Below the pieces are notes generated by a model. The model saw nothing but the letters and a program-made list of their open reading frames with translations, ran no database searches and was not told the DNA's origin. DNA of 63,242 bases, from NCBI GenBank assembly GCA_036504095.1, contig DASXVS010000059.1, positions 1 through 63,242 of the forward strand, read 5' to 3'. Of the stretch, positions 2,285-63,242 are shown piece by piece; within the stretch, counting starts at the first letter, position 1, and each line of letters begins with the position of its first letter. The DNA comes from Armatimonadota bacterium. GTDB taxonomy: Bacteria; Armatimonadota; DTGP01; JAKQQT01. Made by a program: the position numbers and the translations under genes.

Positions 2285-2290
2285 CACACC

Positions 2291-5073: not shown

Positions 5074-5078
5074 GCGGC

Positions 5079-8827: not shown

Positions 8828-8828
8828 C

Positions 8829-10967: not shown

Positions 10968-10986
10968 TGCCTGCTCTCCACTTTCC

Positions 10987-11839: not shown

Positions 11840-11889
11840 GATGGCTCGATCCTCGGATCCTCACCGGCCCCATGCCGGAATCGCAGGGC

Positions 11890-12399
11890 TCAGACGGCCT
11901 CCAGCGGACTCAGCGGGGCGTTATCCTCCGGCTTGTCCACCAGCAGCCTATCCTTGTGATATATGAAATCTTTACGATCGTAATCGGCGAGTTCGTAGTT
12001 TCCCGTCATCACGATCGCGGTTGTCGGGCAAGCCTCAACACAGTAGCCACAGAAGATGCATCGCAGCATATTGATGTCGTAGACCTTCGCATAACGCTCT
12101 CCTGGAGAACGCCGGTCCTCATCCGTGTTTTCGGCCGGCTCAACGTAAATGCAGTCGGACGGGCACGCGGCTTCGCACAGCGAGCAGCCTATGCACATCT
12201 CCAGGCCATCCGCGTAGCGGCGCAACTGATGCAGTCCGCGGAAACGCGGATACGGAACCCATTTCTCCTCCGGGTAACTGATCGTGACGTTCGGGCGAAA
12301 TATATGCTTGAACGTCGTCAACAGACCCACGGTGAAACTGAATACCGTGTTCCAGGTTTTCCGCAGCGGCAGCTTAGTGCCGCCGACAACCTTCGCCAT
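11890..12399 (-). CDS. nuoI: NADH:quinone oxidoreductase subunit I (2x 4Fe-4S)
   Basis: NuoI carries iron-sulfur clusters N6a and N6b, which pass electrons from the peripheral arm toward NuoB. The 169-residue protein contains two ferredoxin motifs, [12 protein letters not shown] and [12 protein letters not shown], each with a complete set of four Cys. The start chosen is the ATG at 12399 ([16 protein letters not shown]) with GGAG about 11 nt upstream; a longer in-frame extension to 12441 lacks support. A 73-bp gap separates it from nuoH. Confidence 0.95.
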
Positions 12400-40884: not shown

Positions 40885-41540
40885 GCATCCGGATCGGGGC
40901 GATCAGCGATTGCGGCCGTACCCTGGCCGTTCGCAACTCGCGGCCAATCTGGGCTATCATTGTACCAAGCGAACTGCTCTCCTGGCTTTGGCCACCGCTG
41001 TCACCCGGCGTCATATCCCATTCTGCCAATGGGTTCCCCGGGCAGGCGCCGGCGATGGCCGCTTGTGGACGCGGACCCATGGTCCCGCGTTCGCCGGCGC
41101 CATCCGTGATCGAGGTCTCCGCAACATGCGGGACGCCCCTTCGCGCCAAGGGCTCCGTTTGCGATGACGGTCTGAAGATACCTGAACGTGAACTAAGCGA
41201 TTAGTTGCGCGTCCGGCGTTGGTCGCGACCTGGCCGGTTACCGGCCTGGAGGACTACCGTTGCAGTGGCACGCTTTATACACCTCCGGTCTACAAAGAGG
41301 TCCGACGGTCCTCGGTTGTAGCCTACACCACGACTCCGGCGCGAACCCCCATTGCCGGGTGAACGCACTCACGCTTCCACCGCAGCCTGCAAATCGCGCC
41401 GCTGCGGCCGCCTCACATCGGCGAGCAAGGGCTTCCGTGACAGCCCCACACCGCGCCGAGCAACTCATCATCGTCACAGAGTTTTCCCCTGCGACGGGTC
41501 CGAGCGGGCCCGCCACACTCGTGGAGAAGGGAAGAGAATC
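40885..41540 (+). other. Long intergenic region / leader before dockerin-tailed gene
   Basis: This 656-bp stretch has no gene that I can support. It contains small inverted repeats, including CGGCC/GGCCG shortly after the kinase stop and GGCCGG/CCGGCC around 41231-41248, but no clear hairpin plus T-run. The second half is probably a long leader for the gene at 41541. I looked for riboswitch-like patterns (cobalamin, c-di-GMP) and found no convincing match. Confidence 0.4.
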
Positions 41541-47701: not shown

Positions 47702-48817
47702 TCACTGTTTGGCGGGTGAGCCGCCCATGGCGACCGTGGGCTTTGGGGCACCGGCCGGCAGCGTCGCCTTCCACTCGGCCCAGAGGTCCGCAATCGCCTT
47801 GTTGGTCTTCTGCTTCCAGATATCGTCGGAGTAGGTTCCAGCGCGCATCGCAGTGTTCAGTTCCGGCACCAGGTTCTTGTCATATTTGGCCTGAGCCCAA
47901 TCCAGGAACTGGGCGCCAATCTGATAGGCCTGGGGATCGTTCGGCACACGGTCAGCCGTGAAGTGCAGGGCCTTGCTCATCGGTTCATATCGGTAAAACC
48001 GGATGTAGTCGTCCACTGCTTCCACAAGCCAGCCAGGATTGTTGCCGTGGTAGTTCTGTATCACGTGGGTCATCTCGTGCACCACTGCGCCGTAGTCATC
48101 CGGGTGGCTCCGGAAATAGGCGGCCGAGAAGAAACAGCCGTCGCCTGACGTGTAGGCAACGCCCGACATCTCTCGATAAGTCTGGGTGAACTTTGATGGG
48201 GGCGTGACACCATCGGAATGCAGATAGGCGGAAATGAACGGGTAGTAGGCCTCGCAGATCGCCTTCGCGCGTCCCGCAAACCCGGCAAGGTCCGGAGCGC
48301 CGGTTGTGTCGAGCGTGATCTCGGGTGTATCCTTTTCCAGTTTCGCCTTAGAAGCCGCCAGCGCCTCCGCGGACAGAGCGGGCGGCGAAGGGGGGGTGAC
48401 GGTCACGCTGGCCGGACGCGCGGGAAGCAGAACGACGCGTGTCGCGGTGAACGATCCGTCGTCCTTGGCGGCCCCGTAGACACCGATTCGGGCGTCCACT
48501 TTCAGGTCCGCCCGTGACGCTTTGCCATCGGGGATGCGGTCGATGGTCGCAGTAGCCGGTATCGTCACCGTCACGTCCCCGCGGCGGCTCGTGAGGGTGA
48601 AGACGTCGCCCTTGATGTCTTTGATCGTGCCCGAGCGGTCGGGACGCGTGAATCCCGCGCTACCCGGGCCAGCGGGAGGCGTCACCGGGGCGGCCTGGAA
48701 CGCTTGGGAGGCGCCTGCGGCAAGCAGGAGAACAGCCCCGCAGGCGACAACAGAGGACAGATTGGCATGGCGATGATTTGTACCGCAGATGTGGTTGAAA
48801 CGCAGCTTGGTAATCAA
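47702..48817 (-). CDS. Secreted BSP-family metallopeptidase with DUF5666-like domain
   Basis: This 371-residue protein starts at a TTG (48817) with GGAGG 9 nt upstream. A signal peptide (about 18-39, VVACGAVLLLAAGASQA) is followed by a DUF5666-like beta-barrel (about 62-131) and a basic-secretory-protein peptidase domain. The zinc motif is HEMTH (His247, Glu248, His251), followed by NNPGWLVEAVDDYIRFY. BSP proteases occur in plants and soil bacteria; substrates are unknown. The frame is open back to 48895, but there is no ribosome site there. Confidence 0.85.
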   Translation of the reverse strand: MITKLRFNHICGTNHRHANLSSVVACGAVLLLAAGASQAFQAAPVTPPAGPGSAGFTRPDRSGTIKDIKGDVFTLTSRRGDVTVTIPATATIDRIPDGKASRADLKVDARIGVYGAAKDDGSFTATRVVLLPARPASVTVTPPSPPALSAEALAASKAKLEKDTPEITLDTTGAPDLAGFAGRAKAICEAYYPFISAYLHSDGVTPPSKFTQTYREMSGVAYTSGDGCFFSAAYFRSHPDDYGAVVHEMTHVIQNYHGNNPGWLVEAVDDYIRFYRYEPMSKALHFTADRVPNDPQAYQIGAQFLDWAQAKYDKNLVPELNTAMRAGTYSDDIWKQKTNKAIADLWAEWKATLPAGAPKPTVAMGGSPAKQ

Positions 48818-48875
48818 CTGACCTAACCTCCATTCACAGGGGCGCCCCGATCCCGGGTGGCCCGATTGGGGTTGC

Positions 48876-48909
48876 GCGCTCTGCGGAGTGTTCAAACTCC
48901 GCAGAGCGC
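48876..48909 (-). terminator. Perfect 14-bp hairpin after GH38 gene 1
   Basis: GCGCTCTGCGGAGT (48876-48889) and ACTCCGCAGAGCGC (48896-48909) form a 14-bp stem with a 6-nt loop. It begins 7 nt after the stop of the first alpha-mannosidase gene. No T-run follows on the minus strand. Confidence 0.7.
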
Positions 48910-48916
48910 AAGTGGA

Positions 48917-51900
48917 TCAACGTTTGGCAAGCGCCGCGATATGCTCCGGCAAGAGGGCCTTGTCGTAAAGCCGGAAGTCTGCTATGTCTCCCGCGTAGAA
49001 ATCGCGAACTGGTGCGCGAGCGCCCTTGGTGGCGATGCACAGGGGGTCAGATGACGTCGCGATGGCGCCGGTGCCGTCTGCGCGGGCAACGGAGACCCCG
49101 TCCACGTAGATAAAGATGTTCGCGCCGTCGTAGGTTGCCGCCACGTGATGCCATTGGCCGGCGGTGGGAAGCGCACATTCCGCCGAGCCCACACCGCTGA
49201 GTTCGAACAGCAGTTTCCCCTCGCTGGCCGTGAGGCGGAACTGATTGTCATTATTCCCTTTTTGGACGATGCGGTGATTGTCGTTCCAGTTTGCGGGATG
49301 GATCCAAGCGGAGAGTGTGATCGCGTCCGTCGGATTGAGCTCCGCGCGATTCGGCACGATCACGGCGTCGTTCGTCCCGTTGAATGACAGCGCGGCGCCA
49401 TGCGGACCTTGAACCTCGGCCGGTGCGCCCAGCACTCGCAGGACGATTCCCGGCACCGTTCCCTGGGCGTTATCAAGCCCCGGAAGGAGCGCCAGAATCG
49501 GTGTGGCGGGGGAAAAGGCGCGGCCGGCGGCCATCGCGATAGAGTTCGCGTGTGGGGACGTGTCCTGCACGCCGTTGACGCTAAGAGAATAGGACTGGCC
49601 GGCTTCCGGCGCCGGGCTCACAGTGATGTCCACGCTCCGCCCGTCCCCCGCGAGCCGGGCGGTGCGAACGGTCAGGCCTTCGATCTTGTACAGGTCCGCG
49701 TTCGCTCCGGAGGACGCATTCACCGGCTCGGAGAATGTGACCCGGATGAGAGGTGATCCCGCCGCGGAAGTGATCCCCGTCACCGTCGGAGGCGTACGGT
49801 CATCAACTTTGTACGTGCCCGATACGACAGGGCCCGCCGGCTTGTTTCCGTGGAAGGCGCGGGCGCGAATCACGGTATCGTGGCTCACCCGGATGGGCAT
49901 CTGATAGACGGCGGAGGTGGCGACGGGATCGGAGCCATCCGTTGTGTAGACGAGCTTCGCGGTAGAGTCGTACACGGACGGCCGAAGGGAGACCGACATG
50001 GTGTCGTTTGAGCTTCCGCTCGCCGGGCTCAACTCAGGGGTCGAGCCGGTTGTGCCGAAGGCGTCATAGAGATACTGCGCCGGTTTGGCAGCGTCGTTCG
50101 TGCCGGAGGCGGCGGTGACGGCGAAAACCCTGATAGCCGGATTCTTTGGCAGTGTGAGCGTCTTTGCGCCGGCAGGCACGTCCAGGCCATAGCGGAAGAC
50201 ATAGGCGTACGCGTAGATGTCATTCCCCCCCGCCGCATTGTGGCGGTGCGTCGCGTAGAACGCGATGGGGTCCCGTTTGATGTAGGCGGGCTGGAGTCCA
50301 TAGATGCCGCCGTCCAGAAGCTGAAGGCCCGGCGCGCTCGCCGGCTTTTCCCAGATCCGGTTGTCCCACTGGCCGATGAAACCGCTCCAGTCCTGGACCG
50401 ATACCGGTATTGCCTTTCCTCCGGCGACAAATGTGTCATGCGTGTCGCCCCCGAAGGCGGCGGCCAACACGTACACTCTTGTCATTCCACCGGGCAGCTT
50501 CACCGTCTGGCCGTTGCAGGCCAGGGCGGTCTTGGCGCCGGGCGATCTGCGGGCCATCTGGAATTTGACCCCACCCGATACGAACGTTCCGGGGAACATC
50601 TCAATGGGGAAGGTGTGGCCCTTGCCATCGAATCCCTTGGCGTTAGCCTTTCCGTCATATCCTGCTGCCACCACGTCGTAAGGGATAGCAAGCGGTTTAC
50701 AGACGGGCATTGTGAGGCGCGCGGCGGGCTTGCCGAGGCGGATCGCGAACGCCCGCGGGTTGTAGGCGCTCATCTTGAGGCTCAGCGCGCCGCTCTTCAG
50801 GTTGGCGGGGCCGATCGTGCGCTCCTGGCCATTGACTTCGCGGGCCGAAACGATCGGCGCGGCCGCGGAGAGTGTTACGGAGACAGGCGCCCCGCTCAGT
50901 TCCTGCAGGCGAACGATAACGTCATCGCTGTCTTCGGCCTTCTTGATGGCGGTGATGGCAACTTGGGTTGTATTGACCGTGAACAGGGAGAATGTGCCGC
51001 CGAGCTTGCCCGCGTGGGCCGGCGATTGGAAGGCCACGAGCGGCTGGTTGAGCCGCGCTGCTTCCCAGGGCGTCTTGCCCTTCCAGCTGCCATTGTGACC
51101 CTCGAGGGCGTAAAGAACGCGGTGAGTGCCTACGTCCTGAGTCGCCTGGTCCGGGTAGGACCTGGCGCCAGGCGTTCGGAGCAGAGTGAGCCGCAGGGTG
51201 TGGTCGTCGGGCTTGTCCGAACCGAATTTCGAGTCTTCCAGAACGGACACGCCATAGCGGCCCGCGGCATCGGTGAGGTCGAACCACTCGTGCGAAACAA
51301 CTTCGTACTTCTTTTCGTCGTCGGTGGAGCGCTTAATGGTCCCCATTCCGAGGTTGTAAGTGGCCATCTCGTTGGACACCGCCAGCGGGAACTCGGTCTT
51401 AAGCGTCGTCTTCCGCTCGTTCCAATTGATGGTGTTGTCAAACTCCACGCGGTTGCCTGCTCCGGCCGCGGCGAGGCGAATAACCTGCACGAATTTTGAG
51501 CCGCTCGTGTTGCGTGTTACTTCAAGGGCGACCCGCACGGGACCATTCTCAACGACGCGTACCTTGGCCGGTCCCGACACGTAGCCGATAGACGGAGCGC
51601 TTTGATCGCGCCAGTCCATATTCCAGGCCGGCCACTGATCGGGCTCTTCAAACCTCAACGCGAGGCGCGCCGGCCCGGCGAGCAGCGGGCGGCCGTTGGC
51701 CTTATCCGTGATCTGCTCAACGTCTCCGCCTGCATTCAGCGTGACCTTGTATCGATTGTTCTGCAGGACGCCGCTCTGAACACTCAGGCCGGTAGACATC
51801 ACGCACGGTTTGGCAGAAGGGCGAACGTCGTAGGTAACGAAGCCGACGGACGGGGCCTTGGCGAGAAACAGTACTTCCACCGTGCCGCCATCGCGCCCGG

Positions 51901-53290
51901 CAACCTGGGAGGGAACCTCAACGCCGCCCGGGCCGTACACGCGAACAGCCGCCGGCGCCTTGTCAAAACGCACCTTTGCGTCTACCACATCCTCGCGGGC
52001 AACGGACAGCGGGTTGTACACAACCACAGAGACGCCCTTGGCGCGCGTATCCATCGCGCGGATCACAGCGCCCGCCCCATCGCTCAGCGCGCTGGCCGAG
52101 TGATTCAAAGCGGTCACTTCATCGTTCCAGGAGAACTCGTAAGCCTTCGGGATGCTCGTGCCCGGCAGGATGTCGTGGAACTGACCGCCGAGGATGAGCC
52201 GCCACGCATCGTTCATGTGCTGCTGAGGATACTTCTCCGCACCCAGCCAGTCGGCGGCGACGGAGGCGCGCTCCGCGGAGTCCGCCAGAAGCTCGTTCTT
52301 GCGGTTCCAGCGCTTCATGTACGCTTGGGAAGTGAGGGAACCGGCGGAGTGCTGGGTCAGTTCCAGGTCGCCCTTATACGTGGGCAGCTTGGAAACCTGC
52401 TTGGGGGTCAGATCGCGGAAGATCTGGTCGGACGGGGAAGCGACCACGGTTACAGGGCCGGTCCCGTTTACACTCTTTTCCATCCACTGGGCGGAGCTCT
52501 CCGCGGGGGCGCCGCCGACATCACCCGTTCCATAGTAACGGAAGTCCACGAAAGCGCCGGACTTCTCGCCAATCTTGTTGATGCGGTCCAGGATAAACTG
52601 GCTCTGGCTGAGATCCTCGTTGACCCTGGCACTGTAGGAGCCGGCATCGAGGGCGGAAGTGACGAACTTGCCGTCCGGGCCATACCAGTTGCCCACCGTG
52701 AACGGAATGGGATACGGGAAGCCCCAGGTGAGTTTCTGGGTGGAAAATCCCTTGATCCCGCAGTGCGCGAGAATGGACGGAAGGGAGGCAGGGAATCCGA
52801 AGCAGTCCGGAAGGATGAAGTCGATGCTCGTTTCGCCCATCTCTTTCGTAAAGAAATGGTTGCCGTAGAGAAGCTGGCGAATGATCGACTCGGCTGACGG
52901 AACGTTCACGTCGTTCTCTTCGACAGAGGATCCCGCCACGAACCAGCGCTTCTTCCGAATGTACTCTTTGACCTTGGCGAAGTCCTTCGGATAGTACTCT
53001 TTCATCATCCGGTAGCGGTTGGAACCGGAAAACGAGAAGATGTAGTTCGGATACTTCTCGAACAGCGCGAAGTTATCCTTCATCGTGTTCGGGATGTATT
53101 CACCGATCGTATCGAGATAGCTCCATCGCCACTGGGTATCGAGGTGTGAATAGCCGACCTCATAAAGTACCTTGTCCGTCGCCGGGTTGTAGGCGGAACG
53201 GGCGCGCGCACGCTGGGCAGCGGGCTGGGCGGCATCGCAAGACGCCGCTAACGCCAGGCCAATCACGGCCAGAGCGAGATGATTCCTCAT
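48917..53290 (-). CDS. Secreted GH38 alpha-mannosidase with FN3-like, SbsA-Ig and LamG modules
   Basis: The 1457-residue protein has a signal peptide (about 1-20, possible weak lipobox ASC). The GH38 catalytic domain has the zinc-binding YSHLDTQWRW (His49, Asp51) and nucleophile Asp162 in FILPDCFGFP, plus GQFHDILPGTS. The GH38 C-terminal beta domains extend to about 850. An NPCBM-like part, a chitobiase-C-like module (LVYTTDGSDPVATSAVYQ), an SbsA-type Ig domain (PPTVTGITSAAGSPLIRVTF) and a LamG lectin domain (WHHVAATYDGANIFIYVDGV) follow. Retaining GH38 enzymes release alpha-mannose. Operator-like repeats lie upstream, shared with the divergent PTS operon. Confidence 0.93.
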   Translation of the reverse strand: MRNHLALAVIGLALAASCDAAQPAAQRARARSAYNPATDKVLYEVGYSHLDTQWRWSYLDTIGEYIPNTMKDNFALFEKYPNYIFSFSGSNRYRMMKEYYPKDFAKVKEYIRKKRWFVAGSSVEENDVNVPSAESIIRQLLYGNHFFTKEMGETSIDFILPDCFGFPASLPSILAHCGIKGFSTQKLTWGFPYPIPFTVGNWYGPDGKFVTSALDAGSYSARVNEDLSQSQFILDRINKIGEKSGAFVDFRYYGTGDVGGAPAESSAQWMEKSVNGTGPVTVVASPSDQIFRDLTPKQVSKLPTYKGDLELTQHSAGSLTSQAYMKRWNRKNELLADSAERASVAADWLGAEKYPQQHMNDAWRLILGGQFHDILPGTSIPKAYEFSWNDEVTALNHSASALSDGAGAVIRAMDTRAKGVSVVVYNPLSVAREDVVDAKVRFDKAPAAVRVYGPGGVEVPSQVAGRDGGTVEVLFLAKAPSVGFVTYDVRPSAKPCVMSTGLSVQSGVLQNNRYKVTLNAGGDVEQITDKANGRPLLAGPARLALRFEEPDQWPAWNMDWRDQSAPSIGYVSGPAKVRVVENGPVRVALEVTRNTSGSKFVQVIRLAAAGAGNRVEFDNTINWNERKTTLKTEFPLAVSNEMATYNLGMGTIKRSTDDEKKYEVVSHEWFDLTDAAGRYGVSVLEDSKFGSDKPDDHTLRLTLLRTPGARSYPDQATQDVGTHRVLYALEGHNGSWKGKTPWEAARLNQPLVAFQSPAHAGKLGGTFSLFTVNTTQVAITAIKKAEDSDDVIVRLQELSGAPVSVTLSAAAPIVSAREVNGQERTIGPANLKSGALSLKMSAYNPRAFAIRLGKPAARLTMPVCKPLAIPYDVVAAGYDGKANAKGFDGKGHTFPIEMFPGTFVSGGVKFQMARRSPGAKTALACNGQTVKLPGGMTRVYVLAAAFGGDTHDTFVAGGKAIPVSVQDWSGFIGQWDNRIWEKPASAPGLQLLDGGIYGLQPAYIKRDPIAFYATHRHNAAGGNDIYAYAYVFRYGLDVPAGAKTLTLPKNPAIRVFAVTAASGTNDAAKPAQYLYDAFGTTGSTPELSPASGSSNDTMSVSLRPSVYDSTAKLVYTTDGSDPVATSAVYQMPIRVSHDTVIRARAFHGNKPAGPVVSGTYKVDDRTPPTVTGITSAAGSPLIRVTFSEPVNASSGANADLYKIEGLTVRTARLAGDGRSVDITVSPAPEAGQSYSLSVNGVQDTSPHANSIAMAAGRAFSPATPILALLPGLDNAQGTVPGIVLRVLGAPAEVQGPHGAALSFNGTNDAVIVPNRAELNPTDAITLSAWIHPANWNDNHRIVQKGNNDNQFRLTASEGKLLFELSGVGSAECALPTAGQWHHVAATYDGANIFIYVDGVSVARADGTGAIATSSDPLCIATKGARAPVRDFYAGDIADFRLYDKALLPEHIAALAKR

Positions 53291-53316
53291 GACTGCACAT
53301 GTCTCCGTCGAAGCGT

Positions 53317-53338
53317 GTTGGTCCATGTTTGGACCAAC
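53317..53338. promoter_or_regulatory. Operator A: direct and inverted TTGG sites
   Basis: GTTGGTCCATGTTTGGACC (53317-53335) is one of five copies of a 19-bp element with two TTGG half-sites at 11-bp phasing. It also forms an inverted repeat with 8-bp arms (GTTGGTCC and GGACCAAC, 53317-53338). It sits 27 bp upstream of the first mannosidase ATG. Confidence 0.6.
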
Positions 53339-53356
53339 GGGAAGTTTTGAGCGGCA

Positions 53357-53385
53357 CTTGGTACCGCTTTGGTCAACGTTATACT
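53357..53385 (+). promoter_or_regulatory. PTS operon promoter overlapped by operator B
   Basis: The -35 TTGGTA (53358-53363) and -10 TATACT (53380-53385) are 16 bp apart. The element CTTGGTACCGCTTTGGTCA (53357-53375) covers the -35 and most of the spacer, a typical repressor position. It matches 14 or more positions of the element upstream of the GntR gene. Confidence 0.6.
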
Positions 53386-53467
53386 ATTACGGAGCGGCTA
53401 CCCGTCAGCAAACCGGGGCGTCCCGGACCAGGAATTTCGCCGCAGACGACACCCGAGAGGCAGAGGA

Positions 53468-55975
53468 ATGGCTTGCGAGCACAGTTTTCAGTTCCCGTTA
53501 GAGCACGGTTTACATGCTCGCCCGGCTTCGGTCCTGCGGGACGCCGCGGATGCACATAGCGCTGATATCCGCTTTATCAACCATCGCAACGGCATCGAGG
53601 CCAACGCCAAGAGCGTGCTGTCGCTCATCGCGGCGGACGTACACCTCGGCGATCCTTGCTCCATCATCGTTGAAGGCGATGACGAACGGTCCGCTTGCGA
53701 TGCGCTCGCCGCCTTCCTCACAGACGTCTTCCCGGGCTGCGACGAACCGTTGCCGGCCCCGTCCATCGATGAGTCCGGAACAGCCCAGCCGCCCCGCGTT
53801 GTCGCATCCAGCGGCGCGACTTTCATCCGGGGTCTTTCGGCCTGTCCCGGTGTCGTTGAGGCGCCGGCGTTCGTCCTCGAAGCGGAGCCCCTGCCGGACG
53901 TGCCGGACCGCGCAGACTCGCCGGACCGGGAGAAAGCCATATTCGACATGGGTTTGGACGTCACCGCCAGCGATATGGTGACATCGCTCGAGCGCGTTTC
54001 CAATCCCACCGAGGCCGACGTACTGAAGGCGCATCTAGCCATCCTGCGCGACCCGGAGTTCCGAGACCGCGTTAACAGCGCCATCGCCTCGGGCTGCTCC
54101 GCCGGCGGAGCGATTATTGACGTTCAGACACACTACACGACGGTATTGGGGACATCGGAAAGCGCCTACCTGCGCGAACGAGCGATGGACGTCCGAGACG
54201 TCTCTTCCCAATTGCTCCGCCGCCTGTATCCGGATGCGTCGCGCCGTGAAAGGCCGGCGCCCTCTGGGCCGCATATCCTCGTTGCACAGGACCTCACCCC
54301 GTCCGAGTTCCTGTCGCAGGACAAGGCGCTCATCGCCGGAATCGTCCTCAGTGAAGGCGGAATCACCTCCCACACGGTGATCCTCGCCAGGGCGGCGGGA
54401 ATCCCCTGCGTTGTCGGCGCCCGAAACGCCCATCGCCTGGTTTCGACCGGTGTTCCGATGATCCTGGACGCGCGGCGCGGCTTGGTTTTGCCGGAGCCTC
54501 CCGAGGCGGTCTCCCGTTACTACCGCCTGGAGCAGAAGCGCGCCCGGCGGCGCCGCGAACAACTGGAAATCCACGCCGGCGCCCCAGGCCGGACTGCCGA
54601 CGGCCGTCCCGTCGAGGTCTCCGCCAACGCCAGCAGCGCCGAAGAAGCGGAAGCCGCCTTCATGGCCGGCGCGGAGGGCATCGGCCTGTTCCGCACTGAA
54701 CTGCTCTTTATGGACCGCTCCCAGCCCCCCACCGAGGAGGAGCAGTTCACGGTTTACTCCCGCCTCGTCACCGCCGCGAAAGGGCGGCCGGTGATCATTC
54801 GAACGCTCGATGTCGGCGGCGACAAGCCGGTACCCTATCTCTCTCTGCCCGAAGAACCGAATCCATTTCTGGGATACCGCGCCGTCCGGTTCTACCCGGA
54901 CCACGAGGATCTGCTGGCGACGCAGTTGCGGGCGATACTGCGCGCCGCGGCCCTCGGACCCGTACGCGTGATGGCGCCGATGATCTCCTGCGTGGAGGAA
55001 GTGCGATATGTGAGGGCTCTCGTGGGCAGGGTTGCCGAGGGTCTCGTTGCGGCCGGGCAGGCGCATGGCGCCGTCGAGATCGGCATCATGATTGAAGTGC
55101 CCTCCGCGGCGATGATCGTGGACGCGCTGGCCGTCGAGGCCGAGTTTTTCAGCATAGGCACCAACGATCTGGCGCAATACCTGATGGCCGTGGACCGGGG
55201 AAATCGCAAGATCGGGAAACTGGCGGGCATGCTGCACCCGGCTTTGCTCCGCACGCTCACCAAGATCGTGGACGACGCTCACGCCGCGGGACGATGGGTT
55301 GGCATGTGCGGCGAAATGGCAGGCGTGGAACGCCTCGCCCCGGTTCTGGTTGGCCTTGGGCTCGACGAATTAAGCATGGCAGGCCCCAACGTTACGGCGA
55401 TGAAGGCCGCGCTAGGGAAATGGCGCACGGACGAGTGTCGCGCGATGCTCGAAGCAGCCTCCAAAGCGCCAACTGCGACGGATGCCGACGCCATCGTGAC
55501 GGCATTCTCGCCGGCGGGTGAGAAACCCGGCGTCCTCGACGCGGCTATCGTAAACCTGGAATCCGAAGCACGGTCCCGCGACGAAGCCATCAAGGAACTG
55601 GTGGATCTCTTGTCGCTCGATGGCCGGATCGGCGATCCGAATCTCGTCGAAGAGGCGATCTGGCGCAGGGAAGACGAATATTCCACGGGAGTGGGATATG
55701 GATTCGCCATTCCGCACTGCAAATCCAAAGACGTGACGGTTAACTCAATCGGATTCCTGAAGCTGAACGAGCCGATCGAATGGCAGACGCTGGACGATGA
55801 GCCGGTGCGCGTCGTGCTGATGCTCGCAATCCGCGAGGCCGACCACGGCACGGAGCACCTCAGGATCTTCGCCCAACTCGCCCGAAAGATAATGGACGAT
55901 GACTTCCGTGAACGGCTGCTCACGGAAAATGACACAGTAGAGTTGGTTCGGTTCATCCAGTCAGAGATAGAGTAG
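53468..55975 (+). CDS. Multiphosphoryl transfer protein: HPr-EI-EIIA(Fru) fusion
   Basis: This 835-residue cytoplasmic protein unites three PTS parts in one chain. The HPr domain (about 1-90) has His16 in HGLHARPAS and the regulatory-type Ser49 in NAKS. Enzyme I (about 120-660) has active His302 in GGITSHTVILAR, and the PEP-binding GMCGEMAG is present. The EIIA(Fru) domain (about 690-835) has His750 in GFAIPHCKSKDV. The order matches E. coli FryA/PtsA-type proteins. It would carry phosphate from PEP to the EIIB encoded downstream. The ATG at 53468 is where the HPr domain begins; the frame runs a little further upstream. Confidence 0.95.
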   Translation: MACEHSFQFPLEHGLHARPASVLRDAADAHSADIRFINHRNGIEANAKSVLSLIAADVHLGDPCSIIVEGDDERSACDALAAFLTDVFPGCDEPLPAPSIDESGTAQPPRVVASSGATFIRGLSACPGVVEAPAFVLEAEPLPDVPDRADSPDREKAIFDMGLDVTASDMVTSLERVSNPTEADVLKAHLAILRDPEFRDRVNSAIASGCSAGGAIIDVQTHYTTVLGTSESAYLRERAMDVRDVSSQLLRRLYPDASRRERPAPSGPHILVAQDLTPSEFLSQDKALIAGIVLSEGGITSHTVILARAAGIPCVVGARNAHRLVSTGVPMILDARRGLVLPEPPEAVSRYYRLEQKRARRRREQLEIHAGAPGRTADGRPVEVSANASSAEEAEAAFMAGAEGIGLFRTELLFMDRSQPPTEEEQFTVYSRLVTAAKGRPVIIRTLDVGGDKPVPYLSLPEEPNPFLGYRAVRFYPDHEDLLATQLRAILRAAALGPVRVMAPMISCVEEVRYVRALVGRVAEGLVAAGQAHGAVEIGIMIEVPSAAMIVDALAVEAEFFSIGTNDLAQYLMAVDRGNRKIGKLAGMLHPALLRTLTKIVDDAHAAGRWVGMCGEMAGVERLAPVLVGLGLDELSMAGPNVTAMKAALGKWRTDECRAMLEAASKAPTATDADAIVTAFSPAGEKPGVLDAAIVNLESEARSRDEAIKELVDLLSLDGRIGDPNLVEEAIWRREDEYSTGVGYGFAIPHCKSKDVTVNSIGFLKLNEPIEWQTLDDEPVRVVLMLAIREADHGTEHLRIFAQLARKIMDDDFRERLLTENDTVELVRFIQSEIE

Positions 55976-56014
55976 AACCGGGCCCAACCCAATGAACACT
56001 AAGGAGCACCCCCG

Positions 56015-57154
56015 ATGGCATTTGAACCCCGGCGGCTAAAGCAGTACCTCTTGAGCGGCGTCTCGTACGCCATTCCGTTCGTCGCGTGCGGCGGCATTAT
56101 GATCGCCTTTGCGCTGGCGTTCGCCCCCAAGGGAGCGAACAACGCGCCTGACCCGTCCGGTTCCCCGGTCCTCTCCCTCATCTTGAATATCGGCGTTGCC
56201 GCATTCACGCTGCTGGTGCCGGTCCTGGCCGCCTATATTGCGTACGGAATTGCCGACCGCCCTGGCCTGGTCCCGGGTATGGTTGGCGGCTGGATCGCAA
56301 CCCACCTGGCGCCGGCCACGAAACTCGTGGCTATCACCGTCCCCGGGCTGAAGGATACGTATCAGCTCAAGCAGCTCACCCAAGCCACGATGGGTAACGG
56401 CGATTACATCAGCGCCGGGTTCCTGGGTGGTATCGTCGCCGGCCTCATCGCGGGATTCATCGCGCTGCAGATGAAGCGCATCAAGATGCCCCCCTACCTG
56501 AAGCCGATCATGCCGATCATGATCATCCCGGTTGTCTCTTCCCTCATCGTCGGTTTCATCATGTACAAGATCGTCGGCAACCCGGTGGCTGACCTGATGA
56601 ACTGGCTCACCGGTTGGCTGGCATCGATGGGTACCGGCAGCCAATGGGTGCTGGCCCTGATCCTCGGCGCGATGATCGCGTTCGATATGGGCGGCCCCGT
56701 GAACAAGGTGGCGTTCTTCTTCGGCGCGGCGATGATTACCAAGGGCAACCCTTATGTGATGGGCGCCTGCGCCGCCGCCATCTGCATCCCGCCGATCGGC
56801 CTCGGGCTGGCCACCATCGTCGCCAAGAGATTGTGGACCGAAGAGGAACGGGAGTCCGGCATCGCGTCACTCGCCATGGGTATGATCGGCATCACCGAAG
56901 GCGCCATCCCGTTCGCGGCGGCGGACCCGGTGCGTGTCATCCCGACTATTATGATCGGCTCGATGACCGGCGCGGTGATCGCCATGCTGATGAAGGTCGG
57001 TGACCAGGCGCCGCACGGCGGCCCCATCGTACTGCCGGTGGTCATCAACCGCGGATGGTTTGTGGTGGCCATCGTCGTTGGATCGGTTGTGGTAGCCACA
57101 ATCATCAACACGTTGCGCGCTATCGCGCAGAGGAAAGAGGAAGCGAAAGCATGA
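56015..57154 (+). CDS. PTS fructose-family EIIC membrane transporter
   Basis: This 379-residue membrane protein has about 10 hydrophobic helices and the fructose-type EIIC signature GITEGAIPF (292-300). Other marks are AFDMGGPVNKVAFFFGAA and GGIMIAFALAF. It carries the sugar through the inner membrane as it is phosphorylated by EIIB. The family takes up fructose, mannose or 2-O-alpha-mannosyl-glycerate. AAGGAG lies 8 nt before the ATG. Its stop overlaps the EIIB start by 4 nt. Confidence 0.95.
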   Translation: MAFEPRRLKQYLLSGVSYAIPFVACGGIMIAFALAFAPKGANNAPDPSGSPVLSLILNIGVAAFTLLVPVLAAYIAYGIADRPGLVPGMVGGWIATHLAPATKLVAITVPGLKDTYQLKQLTQATMGNGDYISAGFLGGIVAGLIAGFIALQMKRIKMPPYLKPIMPIMIIPVVSSLIVGFIMYKIVGNPVADLMNWLTGWLASMGTGSQWVLALILGAMIAFDMGGPVNKVAFFFGAAMITKGNPYVMGACAAAICIPPIGLGLATIVAKRLWTEEERESGIASLAMGMIGITEGAIPFAAADPVRVIPTIMIGSMTGAVIAMLMKVGDQAPHGGPIVLPVVINRGWFVVAIVVGSVVVATIINTLRAIAQRKEEAKA

Positions 57155-57453
57155 AGTATGTAGCCCTGACATCGTGCCCAACGGGCATCGCCCACACGTA
57201 CATGGCCGCCGAACAGCTCAAGAAGACCGGCAAGAAACTGGGCCACGACGTGAAGGTGGAAACCCAGGGCGCCATGGGCATCGAAGACCAATTGTCGGCA
57301 AAAGACATCCAGGAGGCCGACGCGGTGATCATCGCCTGTGATCTGCCCGTCATCGGCCGGGAGCGCTTCGATGGCAAGCGGATTCTGGAAGTGCCGGTTC
57401 AGGAAGCACTGAAGAACGCTCCCGGCATCTTCGAGAAGGTGCTGGCGGTCTAG
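57151..57453 (+). CDS. PTS fructose-family EIIB
   Basis: This 100-residue cytoplasmic domain has the phosphocysteine motif TSCPTGIAHTYMAAE with Cys9. It receives phosphate from the EIIA part of the fusion protein and gives it to the sugar. The ATGA overlap with EIIC shows coupled translation. Genes for a sugar-phosphate kinase or mannose-6-phosphate isomerase are not next to it, so the later metabolism is encoded elsewhere. Confidence 0.95.
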   Translation: MKYVALTSCPTGIAHTYMAAEQLKKTGKKLGHDVKVETQGAMGIEDQLSAKDIQEADAVIIACDLPVIGRERFDGKRILEVPVQEALKNAPGIFEKVLAV

Positions 57454-57490
57454 TTAGTCACCAACGTGTGCGCCGCTTCCTCCGGGACAG

Positions 57491-57557
57491 CGGCCGGCAA
57501 CACAAAGCGAAGCCTCTCAACGATGGGTTGAGAGGCTTCGCTTTGTGTTGCCGGCCG
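57491..57557. terminator. Perfect 31-bp hairpin between PTS and GH38 gene 2
   Basis: Arms at 57491-57521 and 57527-57557 are exact inverted copies (31 bp) around a 5-nt loop. It lies between the EIIB stop (57453) and the convergent second mannosidase stop (57575), so it probably terminates transcripts from both sides. An exact 31-bp stem is exceptionally long for a terminator. Confidence 0.85.
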
Positions 57558-57574
57558 ATTCTTCTTAGCGGGGC

Positions 57575-60109
57575 TTAGAACCCCACTCTGATCGTACCGA
57601 TGCCATACGGACGTGTCGTGACGTTGGCCAGGTTCCCCGTAACGGTGATCGAGCCGACCTGCTGGTGCTCCAGGATGTTCGTCGGTACGGCCGTCGTGAG
57701 AGGCTTCGGGAACGACACCTGCCCGTTCAGGGTTTGGCCGTGGTCTTCGTAGTATCGCAATATGTAGCCGCTGCCGTCTTCCGCGCGTTTGAAGGCCGTG
57801 ATGATCGCGTTCGGCAGATCCGTGCTGAGCATGGATTTCTCCGCGCCCCAGTCTCCCGTGTGCACCGTACAGGGCATCTGCCGGAGGCCCAGGTTGAACT
57901 GATAGCCGCGGCGCATGGTGTCTCCCAGTTTCCAGTCTCCGCTGTGCGGATAGACGGAGTAATTGATGAGGTGCTTTCCCTTGTCGCCAACGGTGTCCGG
58001 GTTTGAAGTACCACGCAGGAGCGATATCCGCATCGTGGAGCCGTTGACATCCGCGCCATACTTGCAGTCATTGAGCACGGAAACGCCATAAGTCGTCCCC
58101 TGGCTCTCGTCCATCCATTTCTGCATCGGGATATCCACGTGGCCATCGGTGGGACGCTGGATCGCGTAGAACGGACCGTCCATCGTGGCGATGGGCGATG
58201 TGAGCGACGTCGGGATGATGGATTTGAGCAGGAGGTTGTAGTCGTTGAAATCGGCATTGATGCGGGCGTCCACCCGCGGGACACCGCGATAGATGAAGAT
58301 GTCCTGCACGTAGGTTGAGGTGCCGTTCGGGTAAGTGGCCTGAAAATGCGCCCGCACCGGGCCGGTCTCGAGCACTTTGAAATTGGTCGCGGTATCGAGG
58401 TAGGTTGTCGTTCCGTTGAGGGAGATGGACCACGCGCTGTTGCCCGAGTTTTCGCCCAGCACTACGAGGCGAAACGCCTTCTGGCCGGTGGCGAGCACTT
58501 CCTTGTTGTTGATTCGGTCGTAAAGCCTTGAGACCTGGCCCGTGGGCCCATCAATATTGACGATGAACTGAGGCGTTGTGACGACCTGGGTGGTACCGTT
58601 CACGGTCACTGTGATCGGATCGTTGAGCGTCATGTCTGCAGCGGCGGGAGCTACGTGATACACGCGGTATCCCAGGCTGGGCATGGAATTCGCCACGAAC
58701 GTGAAGGTGATGAAAACCTTGCCGTCCCTCGCCTCCCGGCCGATGATCTGGGCCGCCTGACGAACACCCTGCGGATCCGTGACCGCGACGAACGGTGTGT
58801 CCGCATCAAACGGCATGGTCACTTCAATGGGGTCGCTGCGGGTCCAGGCCACGGGGTTAAAGAGGGTAAAGGGCTTCCCGTCCCCTGTCGTGTCCACGTG
58901 CTTTTCCAGCACGCTCCACGCGTTACCGATATGCTTATCGGTGATCAGTTTCATCAGCTTCTGCTTGTTCGCCGCTTCCTCGTACGTGCTGTGGATGGCG
59001 GTTCCGGGCGCGATGTCGTGGAACTGGTTGAAAGCCACGTGCCGCCAGCCGAAGCGGAGGTCGTCGTACGGATAGTCGCCGCCGTTTATGCTTGCGAGCG
59101 ACGCGAGGGTTTCGGCGACATACATCTCGTTTTCAGAGTCGCGGACGATGCGCTTCATGTCTCCGTGGGTGGTGTAGCAACCCTCGAAGGTGTACTGGAG
59201 GTCGCGATTAACGGAGGGGAATCCGGTGGAGGGTTCCGCGGCCCGAACGGCGTTGTAAAAATCAAGGAACTGGGCCTCGCGGACTTCCGGGAAAGTCGGA
59301 TCGGTCTTCAGCATCTCGAGTGCGGTGAGGTCGGAGATCGCCGGGCCCCCGCCGTGGTCTCCGGTTCCCAGCGCAACAAGCGCCATATTAACGCCGCTTT
59401 GCGCCTTGATCGTGGCCGGATAGTTCGTCTGATTCGCCGGGTCCACGGTGTTGTTATACCACCCGGGCGAGAACGGGGAATATGCCAGGACGCGCGATTG
59501 ATCGGGCCCCTGCCACCAGAACAGGTTTACATCCGGGCCGCGCACCGGGCACCGCGCAAAGAAGAAGTTCTGGATTTCGGCCTCCCGGAGGATCTGCGGA
59601 AGCTGGCGGGTGTGCCCGAACGTGTCGGGGAGGAAGCCCACCTCGGCCTGCTTCCCGAATTTCTCCTTGAAGTATCCCTGGCCGTAAATGAATGACCGCG
59701 CCAGCGCCTCTCCACTGGGGATGTCCTCATCGCTTTCATCCCACATCCCGCCCAACAGCTCCCACTGGCCATTGGCGACCTTCGCCTTGATGTCCTGGAA
59801 AACCTTCGGGTCCATCCGTTCCATCGCCAGGTACGCCGACGCCTGAGTTTCGCCGAAATGGAAGCCCGGGAACCGGTACATAAGGTTCAGCTGCGTCTGT
59901 GCCGTTCCGCTCCACGTCTTCGTCGTGTCCGGCCAGTCCCATAGCCAGTTGAAGTCGATGTGGCTGTAGCCGCAGTAGTAGAGGACGCCGGCCGGGCTGC
60001 CAGGCGATCGCTTAACGATAAGCGTTGCCGGCTCCTTCGGCATTTTCAGGTGGGCCGCAGCGGGCGGAACGATCAACAGCGCGGCGAAGAGAGCGAAGCG
60101 TACCTTCAT
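57575..60109 (-). CDS. Secreted GH38 alpha-mannosidase 2
   Basis: This 844-residue protein has a signal peptide (about 1-19, FALFAALLIVPPAAA) and a GH38 catalytic domain: zinc ligands in GYSHIDFNWLWDW (His50, Asp52), nucleophile Asp162 in GFLPDTFGHTRQLPQ, and FNQFHDIAPGTAI. It ends with the normal GH38 C-terminal beta domains and lacks the extra lectin modules of the first mannosidase, to which it is only distantly similar. It may act on a different linkage or shorter oligosaccharide. An operator-like element overlaps its likely promoter. Confidence 0.93.
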   Translation of the reverse strand: MKVRFALFAALLIVPPAAAHLKMPKEPATLIVKRSPGSPAGVLYYCGYSHIDFNWLWDWPDTTKTWSGTAQTQLNLMYRFPGFHFGETQASAYLAMERMDPKVFQDIKAKVANGQWELLGGMWDESDEDIPSGEALARSFIYGQGYFKEKFGKQAEVGFLPDTFGHTRQLPQILREAEIQNFFFARCPVRGPDVNLFWWQGPDQSRVLAYSPFSPGWYNNTVDPANQTNYPATIKAQSGVNMALVALGTGDHGGGPAISDLTALEMLKTDPTFPEVREAQFLDFYNAVRAAEPSTGFPSVNRDLQYTFEGCYTTHGDMKRIVRDSENEMYVAETLASLASINGGDYPYDDLRFGWRHVAFNQFHDIAPGTAIHSTYEEAANKQKLMKLITDKHIGNAWSVLEKHVDTTGDGKPFTLFNPVAWTRSDPIEVTMPFDADTPFVAVTDPQGVRQAAQIIGREARDGKVFITFTFVANSMPSLGYRVYHVAPAAADMTLNDPITVTVNGTTQVVTTPQFIVNIDGPTGQVSRLYDRINNKEVLATGQKAFRLVVLGENSGNSAWSISLNGTTTYLDTATNFKVLETGPVRAHFQATYPNGTSTYVQDIFIYRGVPRVDARINADFNDYNLLLKSIIPTSLTSPIATMDGPFYAIQRPTDGHVDIPMQKWMDESQGTTYGVSVLNDCKYGADVNGSTMRISLLRGTSNPDTVGDKGKHLINYSVYPHSGDWKLGDTMRRGYQFNLGLRQMPCTVHTGDWGAEKSMLSTDLPNAIITAFKRAEDGSGYILRYYEDHGQTLNGQVSFPKPLTTAVPTNILEHQQVGSITVTGNLANVTTRPYGIGTIRVGF

Positions 60110-60269
60110 TTGATGACCTCACGATCTGTGATCAATGGACAATGGCCGATTGGCGATCTGCCGCAAGATTCCTGTGAAAAATTCAATCCCCGCACTTCCT
60201 GGTGGCCCCCCGAACGTCCGGGCAAGGCTGCTTGACTTTGTCGTCGAAATACTGTTGTCACCTTCGATG

Positions 60270-60319
60270 TTGCGGTCCAATCCATGATATCATATAGACG
60301 GACCATAATTGCACCAAAA
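60270..60319. promoter_or_regulatory. Divergent promoters sharing operator C
   Basis: Plus-strand promoter: TTGCGG (60270-60275), 17 bp, TATAGA (60293-60298), driving the NHL gene. Minus-strand promoter: TTTTGG (60314-60319), 17 bp, TATATG (60291-60296), driving the mannosidase. The element TTTGGTGCAATTATGGTCC (minus strand, 60300-60318) overlaps the minus -35 and spacer and the plus start site, so a bound repressor could block both. Confidence 0.5.
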
Positions 60320-60339
60320 TTCACAAGAGGTTGCACCAG

Positions 60340-62748
60340 ATGCGCTCATTTATCCGTTTCTTCGTTTCAGCGGCCGCCGTGGCGTCCGCGATCGCGGCGG
60401 TTTCGGCCGCAACGCCGGTAGTCGTGAACATCGTCGGATCCGGCCCGCTCGGGTGGGATAACGGGGTCTTCGCCGGGGAGGCCTCGCCGGCGCCAATGGC
60501 GAGCCTGGACGCGCCCACGGGTGTGACGACGACCTCCGACGGGCGTATCCTGATGGCCGATTTCATGGGCAACCGCATCCGGGCCGTCGGCACGGACGGA
60601 TTGATCTCCACGCAGGCCGGCAACGGCTGGCCGGGGAGCCAGGGTGGGACGACTGCGCCCACCATCAGCCTGTGGGGGCCGTGGAGCGTGGCCGTCCGCG
60701 GCACAGGCGTAGCATTTTCAGACTCGTTCAACTCGTCCATACGCACGATTACGGGTGGCACCATCATACAGACCGCCGGCGTCATCGGCACCGTCTCCAA
60801 CACGTACTACACCGGCTGGGCCGGATTTGACGGCGACAACGGACCTGCGACTTCCGCCCACCTGAACTGGCCGACGGGCATTGCCTCCGACAGCGCGGGC
60901 AATCTTTATATTGCCGACTCCTGCAATCATCGGATCCGCAAGATCAACGCCGCCGGCACCATCACAACGGTGGCCGGAAACGGCTGGCGGGACACCTGGG
61001 GCCGCGGACGCTACGCCGGAGACGGCGGTCCGGCCACATCTGCGTGCTTGAACTGGCCGACGGCGGTAACCGTGGACGGGCTGGGTAATCTGTACATCGC
61101 CGATACCTATAACCAGCGTATCCGGCGGGTGGACTCCCAGACGCAGGTCATCACCACCGTGGCAGGCACCGGGGACGTCGGCGGTGACGGCGATGGCGGC
61201 CCCGCGACGTCTGCCCGCCTGAACCATCCCCAGGGTCTGGCTCTGGGTGCGGACGGAACGCTCTACATCGCGGATTCGCTTAATCACCGCATCCGCTCGG
61301 TCAGCAGCGGCGCCATCAGCGCCGTGGCCGGGACCGGAGTGCGAGGTTACGCCGGCGATAACTACAGCGCCCTGTCGGCACAGTTCAGCGAACCCCGCGG
61401 CCTCGCCGTCACGCCCCTCGGCGACCTCATCGTCGCGGACACCGGCAACAATCGCGTGCGGATGATCATCTTCGGCGACACGGGACAGCTCGAAGGCATC
61501 GTCCGCGACGGCCAGACGAATGCCCCCATCCCCGGCGCCTCGGTTTGCTGGAGCGGCCTGCAGTCTTCCGCGGACGCGAATGGTTACTATATGCTGACGC
61601 TTCGGACCGGCAGCCCGGTGGTCACAGCCTCGGCTCCAGCGTATGGTCCGGCGGCGGACACAGTGGACATCACGGCCGGCGTTACCACCGTTCACGACTT
61701 CCTCCTGCCGTCCGGCACCGTCACCGGTCACGTGAGCGATGACGGCGGACACATCGTCGCGGGCGCAACGGTTACGGCGGCAGGTGCAACTGCGACGACC
61801 GGACCGGATGGTTCCTTCCAGATGCGGCTTGCGCCCGGCGCCCAGCCGATGACCGCCTCGAAATTCGGCTATGGACCGTCGACCACAACCGTCCAGGTGC
61901 CCACCAACGGCTCCATTCCCGTCCGACTGGTGGTCAGCCGCATCCGCTCCGTCGCCGTGCCGCTGAGCTACAACACCGACTGGATGTCGTGGCACACCAA
62001 TCCCGGCGATTACACCAACCCATCCATAGACTACGCCTACCCCGCCGAGCAGTTGCCGGCTTCGCTCAGCATCTTCACCCTGCCCACATCCGGCGCCCCC
62101 GTGGACTTCTCGTTCCCGGACAAAACCGACGGAGTGAATAACTGCATCTTCATCAACTCACAGGTCATCAACGTGCCCCAGGGGCATTATGCGGGGCTTC
62201 ACATGCTGGAGTCGGCGCGTTTTGGCGGGTTCACCGGCACAGTCACCCTGACGTACTCGGACGCCAGCACCACCAGCGCGTCGCTGATGTTCAGCGACTG
62301 GGCCTGGAATGCCGTTGGAAGCCCGTTGGGCGCGAACGAGAGCGTCGCGATTTCCTGCGACCACCGGCATCAAACGGGCGCTGCCCAAAGCACACCGCCC
62401 GTGGACATCCTCCACTCGCAGATGGCCGTCAACCCGGCTAAGACCCTCGTTTCCATCACTTTGCCGGCCGATAGTTCGGGGAGCGGTTCCAAGGACGGTT
62501 ACCTCTTCGCTCTGTCCCTCGATTCCATCGGCGCCGCCCTGAGCTATGGCGATATCGACGGCGACGGAGTCGTCACCGCCGCGGACGCGGCCGCCGCTTT
62601 GTCCAATGCGGCGGGCCTGTCGGCACTCAGCGCGCCTCAGACGATCCGCGGCGATGTCGCGCCAGTCTGGCCTGACGGATCCTACGGCGACGGCACGATC
62701 GGCATCGACGACGCCCTGCGGATTCTCCGCCTGGCCCGCATGGGCTGA
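60340..62748 (+). CDS. Secreted NHL-repeat, carboxypeptidase-regulatory-like, dockerin-tailed protein
   Basis: The 802-residue product has a signal peptide (about 1-24), five or six NHL beta-propeller blades (TVAGNG, YAGDGGPATSA, LNWPTAVTVDGLGNLYIADT repeated), two carboxypeptidase-regulatory-like Ig domains (LEGIVRDGQTNAPIPGASV; TVTGHVSDDGGHIVAGATV), a beta domain, and a C-terminal dockerin-like pair (YGDIDGDGVVTAADAAAAL; YGDGTIGIDDALRILRLARM). It is likely a secreted binding or scaffold-associated protein. The ATG at 60340 has AGAGG about 9 nt upstream; a TTG at 60331 is possible. Confidence 0.88.
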   Translation: MRSFIRFFVSAAAVASAIAAVSAATPVVVNIVGSGPLGWDNGVFAGEASPAPMASLDAPTGVTTTSDGRILMADFMGNRIRAVGTDGLISTQAGNGWPGSQGGTTAPTISLWGPWSVAVRGTGVAFSDSFNSSIRTITGGTIIQTAGVIGTVSNTYYTGWAGFDGDNGPATSAHLNWPTGIASDSAGNLYIADSCNHRIRKINAAGTITTVAGNGWRDTWGRGRYAGDGGPATSACLNWPTAVTVDGLGNLYIADTYNQRIRRVDSQTQVITTVAGTGDVGGDGDGGPATSARLNHPQGLALGADGTLYIADSLNHRIRSVSSGAISAVAGTGVRGYAGDNYSALSAQFSEPRGLAVTPLGDLIVADTGNNRVRMIIFGDTGQLEGIVRDGQTNAPIPGASVCWSGLQSSADANGYYMLTLRTGSPVVTASAPAYGPAADTVDITAGVTTVHDFLLPSGTVTGHVSDDGGHIVAGATVTAAGATATTGPDGSFQMRLAPGAQPMTASKFGYGPSTTTVQVPTNGSIPVRLVVSRIRSVAVPLSYNTDWMSWHTNPGDYTNPSIDYAYPAEQLPASLSIFTLPTSGAPVDFSFPDKTDGVNNCIFINSQVINVPQGHYAGLHMLESARFGGFTGTVTLTYSDASTTSASLMFSDWAWNAVGSPLGANESVAISCDHRHQTGAAQSTPPVDILHSQMAVNPAKTLVSITLPADSSGSGSKDGYLFALSLDSIGAALSYGDIDGDGVVTAADAAAALSNAAGLSALSAPQTIRGDVAPVWPDGSYGDGTIGIDDALRILRLARMG

Positions 62749-62759
62749 GTGGCAAGCGC

Positions 62760-62778
62760 TTTGGAAACAAATTGGACC
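62760..62778 (+). promoter_or_regulatory. Operator D upstream of GntR gene
   Basis: TTTGGAAACAAATTGGACC has TTGG half-sites 11 bp apart. It merges into the palindrome AAATTGG-A-CCAATTT (62769-62783). It begins 12 bp after the NHL gene stop and about 120 bp before the GntR gene start. Confidence 0.55.
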
Positions 62779-62834
62779 AATTTCGCCCAAACCTGTAGGT
62801 TTTGTCGCCCCACGGGTGTATTTATTAAGTGAAG

Positions 62835-62853
62835 TTTGGTACAGGTTTGGACA
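62835..62853 (+). promoter_or_regulatory. Operator E upstream of GntR gene
   Basis: TTTGGTACAGGTTTGGACA matches operator B (53357) most closely. It lies about 30 bp before the GntR gene start codon, a good position for autoregulation. Confidence 0.6.
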
Positions 62854-62882
62854 TTACTTGACCAACGCAGGATCACGCTCTG

Positions 62883-63242
62883 TTGAAGAAACTCGACCCC
62901 TACCCCATTCTTGAATCCCGCATTCGCGCGGGAGTCTACGCCCAGGGCGCCTGGCTCACCCCGGAACGTGAACTCGCCCGGGAGTTCGGGGTCCATCGCC
63001 AGGCCATCCGGCGCGCCGTTGCGCGCTTATCCGAAATGGGTCTCCTCGAGCGCCGGGCGGGCCACCGCCCCATCGTCCGCCGGCCGGACAGCATCGAACC
63101 TCCTCCCAACATCGTCGCCTTCCTGATGGGCAACGAGCCCCTGTTCCGCTCCTTCCAGGCCATCCTCAAAGGCTGCGAACAGGAACTCGTGGGCGCCGGC
63201 TACCGCCTCATGTTCGTCGACACGTACGCCGAGAGCGAGGAA
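62883..63242 (+). CDS. GntR-type regulator with LacI-like sensor (partial, cut by window end)
   Basis: The visible 120 residues start at a TTG (62883, AGGA about 10 nt upstream; a stop lies just before in frame). The first 65 or so are a GntR winged helix (AGVYAQGAWLTPERELAREF followed by GVHRQAIRRAVARLSEMGLL and ERRAGHRPIV). The next segment (PNIVAFLMGNEPLFRSFQAI, then LKGCEQELVGAGYRLMFVDT) resembles the start of a LacI-type sugar-sensor domain, the layout of AraR-like regulators. The protein continues beyond 63242. It probably controls the mannosidase/PTS locus. Confidence 0.88.
   Translation, partial: MKKLDPYPILESRIRAGVYAQGAWLTPERELAREFGVHRQAIRRAVARLSEMGLLERRAGHRPIVRRPDSIEPPPNIVAFLMGNEPLFRSFQAILKGCEQELVGAGYRLMFVDTYAESEE

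Follow-up and report, generated by a model that had tools for sequence, protein, structure and literature searches.

The window, by which we mean the whole stretch of DNA analysed, is contig C59 in full (63 kb), from a 4.68 Mb genome that is 98.6% complete. Two genes for exported-type GH38 alpha-mannosidases, GH38_A (48917–53290) and GH38_B (57575–60109), both on the minus strand, lie on either side of a three-gene PTS operon on the plus strand, with which GH38_B is convergent. The first PTS gene encodes a fusion of HPr, EI and EIIA(Fru), here denoted MTP (53468–55975), and is followed by separate genes for an EIIC of the fructose superfamily (56015–57154) and for EIIB (57151–57453), which carries the phospho-cysteine motif CPTGIAHTYMAAE and whose start overlaps the EIIC stop codon (ATGA). 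On the 3´ side of the locus, also on the plus strand, are the gene for a secreted NHL beta-propeller/carboxypeptidase-regulatory-like protein (60331–62748) and a GntR-HTH regulator gene (62883–63242), which is truncated at 120 aa by the contig end. A BSP-type metallopeptidase-like protein (PF04450; Pfam BSP 1.6e-18), encoded downstream of GH38_A (47702–48895, minus strand), is a possible further part. All of the elements named in the initial annotation, a GntR regulator, a fructose-family PTS and two GH38s, were found, with active and phospho-sites intact.

Two other ORFs in the window were noted. One (25554–27956) joins a solute-binding protein domain to a BPD_transp_1 permease domain that comes after it, which is either an uncommon fusion or an artefact of the reading frame. 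The other (41352–43865) codes for a protein of 837 aa that matches a dockerin type I domain and lies immediately 5´ of polysaccharide biosynthesis genes.

The two mannosidases and the promoter regions

GH38_A consists of the GH38 N, mid, C and C2 domains followed at the C-terminal end by CHB_HEX_C_1/Fn3_assoc, Big_5 (Ig-like) and Laminin_G_3 domains, bearing out the LamG and Ig modules initially ascribed to one mannosidase, while GH38_B has the GH38 domains alone. For both enzymes, the GH38 N, middle and C domains score above the curated cut-offs, and the HxD, D-nucleophile and His zinc/catalytic motifs are intact. After the GH38 domains of GH38_A there is a conserved domain of ~228 aa (50048–50731) with no Pfam match, which is also present in L010 and L011 and absent from L012; an AlphaFold model of this domain was set aside (pLDDT 49).

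The listed GH38_A ORF starts at 53326, but because its first ATG sits within a perfect palindrome (see below), the start is probably M13, at 53290. From M13, the GH38_A N-terminus (MRNHLALAVIGLALAASCDAAQ), like that of GH38_B (MKVRFALFAALLIVPPAAAHLK), is basic at its beginning and contains a strongly hydrophobic stretch, such that Kyte-Doolittle hydrophobicity over 12 residues, a heuristic measure of export rather than a SignalP prediction, is 2.7 for GH38_A and 2.6 for GH38_B as against 0.3 for the cytoplasmic MTP. These signal-peptide-like segments agree with the signal peptides attributed to both enzymes in the initial annotation. From its N-terminal sequence, GH38_A could be either a lipoprotein or a substrate of type I signal peptidase. 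A similar hydrophobic segment was found in all 19 of the other PTS-linked GH38 loci listed, which cover two GH38 subfamilies and four phylum-level groups (maximum Kyte-Doolittle mean 1.8–3.1, compared with 1.25 for E. coli MngB).

The divergent region between GH38_A and the PTS operon contains two candidate operators, the perfect palindrome TTGGTCCATGTTTGGACCAA (53318–53337), part of which is kept in the related genome G001, and the direct-repeat site TTGGTACCGCTTTGGTC (53358–53374, plus strand). The latter overlaps the -35 element of a sigma-70-like promoter for the PTS operon (TTGGTA-16-TATACT, 53358–53385, plus strand), which is conserved in G001. Since the TTG listed as the MTP start (53369) falls within this promoter, translation probably begins at the ATG at 53468, after AGAGGA. 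Two sites similar to the direct repeat are found in the divergent region between GH38_B and the NHL gene (TTGGTGCAATTATGGTC, 60301–60317, minus strand) and 5´ of the GntR gene (TTGGTACAGGTTTGGAC, 62836–62852, plus strand). There are exactly three occurrences of the putative operator pattern, TTGGTRCNNNNWTGGWC, in the 63 kb, each of them at a promoter of this locus; in the other loci examined, besides copies of this locus and G001, there was one match (L028). The shuffled expectation for the pattern was zero, a value biased by the derivation of the pattern from the very sites it recovers, and conservation in G001 is the better evidence. There, the site at the PTS promoter is perfect, that at GH38_B/NHL has two mismatches and that before GntR has one.

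G001 represents a sister genus and is the sole other sampled genome of the window's family. One of its contigs (L125) carries BSP, GH38_A, MTP and EIIC, and a second (L291) carries EIIC, EIIB, GH38_B, NHL and GntR, all in the order and orientation seen in the window; the contigs of this assembly break within EIIC. The GH38_B ortholog, in the same position, is 78% identical. The regulator ortholog in G001, which extends for 250 aa before its own contig end, has a GntR HTH followed by a LacI-type periplasmic-binding sensor (Peripla_BP_1), without a UTRA match. This is the layout of GntR/LacI hybrid (AraR-like) regulators and departs from the MngR-like regulator that had been suggested, since MngR consists of a GntR HTH and UTRA, and its match to the window regulator is confined to the HTH (15 bits).

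Affiliation of the PTS

The domains of MTP come in the order HPr, EI, EIIA-2, as initially read, and the phospho-sites of HPr, EI, EIIA and EIIB are all intact. A search of the window genome for EIICs of the PF02378 type gave a single one, and there is one real EI, the remaining EI matches being partial, with 30–37% identity over short stretches. With one such EIIC and one EI in a genome of this completeness, the PTS is self-contained, as proposed. A sole, self-contained phosphorelay might instead serve chiefly as a sensor, its phosphorylation state reporting the outside sugar and controlling the mannosidase genes with little transport. We think this very unlikely, given the complete EIIC and intact EIIB and given that we recognised neither a PRD regulator nor any other protein under PTS control in the locus.

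The PTS subunits match fructose-family models. In an EIIC tree, which has long branches among other E. coli rows, the EIICs of all modules of this kind group together (100/99), with E. coli FrwC as their sister (97/89), and are separated both from MngA and from the FruK-linked FruA clade (100/99). MTP matches E. coli FryA over its full length (607 bits) and partial PtsA with 545 bits, and an AraC regulator adjoining the module in several relatives matches YijO of the frw locus (148 bits). On these grounds we class the PTS as Frw-type. The frw (PtsA, FrwC, FrwB, YijO) and fry (FryA, FryB, FryC, YpdC) systems of E. coli share with the window an HPr-EI-EIIA fusion and separate EIIB and EIIC, but lack a GH38; the genes linked to frw encode a glycyl-radical enzyme pair, joined in relatives by fructose-6-phosphate aldolase and glycerol dehydrogenase. 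As FryA and PtsA have the same domain order, the fusion itself is not a novelty. We also rejected a fruBKA-type fructose PTS, the EIIC being outside the FruA clade and no 1-phosphofructokinase being linked; by similarity, no FruK was found next to the module in the loci scanned. The window genome does have a 1-phosphofructokinase (1-PFK)-family gene and a phosphomannose isomerase (PMI) gene, both unlinked to the locus.

The E. coli mngR-mngA-mngB system likewise combines a GntR regulator, a fructose-family PTS and GH38, and the window locus might be a variant of it, taking up mannosylglycerate as the phosphate and hydrolysing it inside the cell. Beyond these three broad families, however, the two differ in each component. 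MngB is cytoplasmic and acts on the phosphorylated product, 2-O-(6-phospho-mannosyl)-D-glycerate (PMC2815779), whereas both GH38s of the window have export-type N-termini. GH38_A and GH38_B are 22% and 25% identical to MngB, respectively, and score 67 and 98 bits with its NCBIfam model PRK09819, for which the cut-off is 1138. MngA is a single EIIABC protein, whereas in the window EIIA is fused to HPr-EI and EIIB and EIIC are separate, with the EIIC 36% identical to MngA and in a different clade. The sensor of the regulator is of the LacI type, and Bacillus altitudinis (L256) has a cluster of the MngB type whose GH38 is not exported. The enzyme, permease and regulator features exclude the locus from MngRAB, making such a variant extremely improbable, and the initial view that the plan differs from mngR-mngA-mngB stands. 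The MngAB and window partnerships of GH38 and PTS appear, from these comparisons, to be independent and of opposite topology. The B. altitudinis cluster (2192–9753), in which the GH38 without export signal is accompanied by separate EIIA, EIIB and EIIC, a ROK-like kinase and an antiterminator-like regulator, is an intracellular counterpart.

Linkage of the PTS to GH38 genes in other genomes

The window genome has 13 GH38 genes, such that a single GH38 near the PTS carries little weight, and we relied on conservation in other genomes. Module loci were gathered by PTS similarity alone, through a protein scan with MTP and whole-genome searches; phylum labels of genomes with G handles were taken from the named genomes at the search centres. 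This gave 35 loci with this PTS and the HPr-EI-EIIA order, three in 291 genomes of the window's phylum, four in 392 Planctomycetota and 25 in 396 Acidobacteriota, completed by one in Fibrobacterota and two further ones in Acidobacteriota. A GH38 gene adjoins the PTS in 20 of the 35 (some loci end at contig edges), representing four phylum-level groups. The linked enzyme is GH38_A in 16 of these 20, among them the Fibrobacterota locus and each of the four from Planctomycetota, and another export-type GH38 in the other four, all from Acidobacteriota. The 15 modules with no adjacent GH38, some of which end at contig edges, are likewise all from Acidobacteriota; in those scanned, the genes alongside are for the most part unrelated, and two have a GH95. 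No GH125 or GH76 relatives were found beside the module in the loci examined, and only a plasmid of Acidisarcina, described below, has them.

The GH38_A subfamily is a 100/100 clade that contains all 16 PTS-linked GH38_A rows as well as two paralogs from the window genome and unlinked copies from G293 and G294. A second GH38_A paralog of the window genome (L260, contig C71, ~2139–12381) has genes for the permease and solute-binding protein of a sugar ABC transporter in its vicinity.

Among the Acidobacteriota genomes examined that have a module but no adjacent GH38, eight carry GH38_A elsewhere (1150–1330 bits), three of them on the contig of the module at a distance of 15–36 kb, and two (G905 and G1063) have no GH38_A match at all. 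Overall, GH38_A was detected at >700 bits in 20 of 26 Acidobacteriota genomes with the PTS, compared with none of 44 without it (Fisher p = 1.4e-12, or 2.6e-11 when one control genome with a match at 671 bits is counted; relatedness of the genomes is uncorrected in both values).

These data bear on the possibility that an ordinary fructose PTS came to lie by chance between two of the 13 GH38 genes. The subunit matches to fructose-family models, the 1-PFK-family gene elsewhere in the genome, which makes fructose possible, and the richness of the genome in GH38 are all in keeping with this idea. The linkage and co-occurrence nevertheless recur across four groups, and G291 and G292 have a single GH38 match each, which is the PTS-adjacent one. 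The separation of the EIIC from the FruK-linked clade (100/99) and the presence in the window's phylum of a separate FruK-linked fructose operon (G027) also argue against it. On the strength of the recurrence in other genomes we rejected chance adjacency in a GH38-rich genome, and we regard the fructose reading as a whole as improbable.

The initial annotation considered a system of this form not to have been described. That does not hold for the fused phosphotransferase, for which FryA and PtsA are precedents, but it does hold for the coupling of a PTS to exported GH38 enzymes, in that no report of such coupling, or of such a system in Armatimonadetes or Acidobacteria, was found in the part of the literature covered. 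As read from these genomes, the new element is the trans-phylum coupling of a Frw-type PTS to exported GH38 enzymes.

Proposed route and candidate substrates

From the sequence-based features, namely the gene content, intact active and phospho-sites, export-type N-termini, linkage and co-occurrence, we propose, with somewhat better than even confidence, that this is an outside-in alpha-mannoside utilisation locus in which exported GH38s release a sugar, most likely mannose, that the PTS imports as mannose-6-phosphate. Working either in the periplasm or extracellularly, the exported alpha-mannosidases would trim terminal mannose off alpha-mannosides, and the freed sugar would be taken in via EIIC and phosphorylated by EIIB, itself supplied from PEP by the one-protein EI/HPr/EIIA relay. 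The resulting mannose-6-phosphate would pass to phosphomannose isomerase. We infer repression as the mode of control, with the GntR/LacI-type protein predicted to repress the PTS/GH38_A, GH38_B/NHL and its own promoters via TTGGTRC-N4-WTGGWC until a sugar, the presumed ligand, binds. The outside-in character of the system, already suggested in the initial annotation, is well supported by the export-type N-termini in all loci examined, the recurrent GH38-PTS linkage and the shared putative operator.

We infer the sugar and the linkage attacked, taking alpha-mannosides as the substrate because of the GH38 family, a plasmid cluster in Acidisarcina and a precedent in Vibrio cholerae. Plasmid pACPOL4 of Acidisarcina polymorpha (L292, 126569–135255) encodes an exported-type GH38_A homolog (47% identity) together with GH125 and GH76, with a TonB receptor, an MFS transporter and a ROK protein in place of the PTS, and is a cluster of the alpha-mannan type. 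Bacteroides-type alpha-mannan clusters contain GH38, GH76 and GH125. For the window locus, mannan is a plausible substrate. In V. cholerae, the manR-manP-manA locus (VC1825-VC1827) encodes a fructose-family PTS, ManP, that carries mannose and fructose, and an AraC-type regulator (PMC9392796). ManP, likened here by description and not by sequence, differs in being a single EIIABC protein with linked manA and no mannosidase.

The neighbours of GH38_A in other genomes argue against one simple substrate. In one Acidobacteriota clade (L294-L299, from G894, G917, G1072, G863, G909 and G941), GH38_A is beside a same-strand ORF of ~440–464 aa, which was a myo-inositol-1-phosphate synthase in all three cases checked by Pfam (L294, L295 and L296), making a mannosyl-inositol link conceivable. 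In G293 and G294 (L301 and L302), the GH38_A homolog adjoins a pro-kumamolisin (S53-type) peptidase. A pairing of mannosidase and secreted protease is thus seen repeatedly, with kumamolisin in these two loci and the BSP metallopeptidase in the window. With the BSP gene in mind, mannosylated glycoproteins are, speculatively, a possible target.

The GH38s could also act outside while the PTS imports and phosphorylates another product, such as mannobiose, mannosyl-glycerate, mannosyl-inositol or another small mannoside. The separate clade to which the EIIC belongs, with the orphan FrwC as its sister, and the GH38_A genes beside myo-inositol-1-phosphate synthase would fit this. A phospho-mannoside would need a cytoplasmic hydrolase, yet all PTS-linked GH38s look exported, and in the module loci we recognised no phospho-mannosidase of the cytoplasm next to the PTS. 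We therefore consider import of a small mannoside unlikely and favour mannose.

Descriptions of Gram-negative-type environmental bacteria usually treat uptake through a PTS and the export of enzymes that degrade polysaccharides as distinct strategies. We tentatively suggest, at rather less than even confidence, that the module serves bacteria of several phyla as a unit for scavenging alpha-mannosides, its self-contained Frw-type PTS being devoted to what the exported GH38s release, and that it evolved independently of MngAB and with the opposite topology. On this reading, the specificity of its EIIC, whether for mannose or for a small mannoside, would predict what the orphan Frw PTS of E. coli transports. 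The layout is the opposite of that in the E. coli system, which imports first and then cuts inside. A cassette of this kind in Acidobacteriota, Planctomycetota, one Fibrobacterota genome and the window's phylum would represent a new alpha-mannoside route in soil and similar habitats, and, through guilt by association, would point to a substrate for PTS permeases of the Frw branch, the orphan system of E. coli among them.
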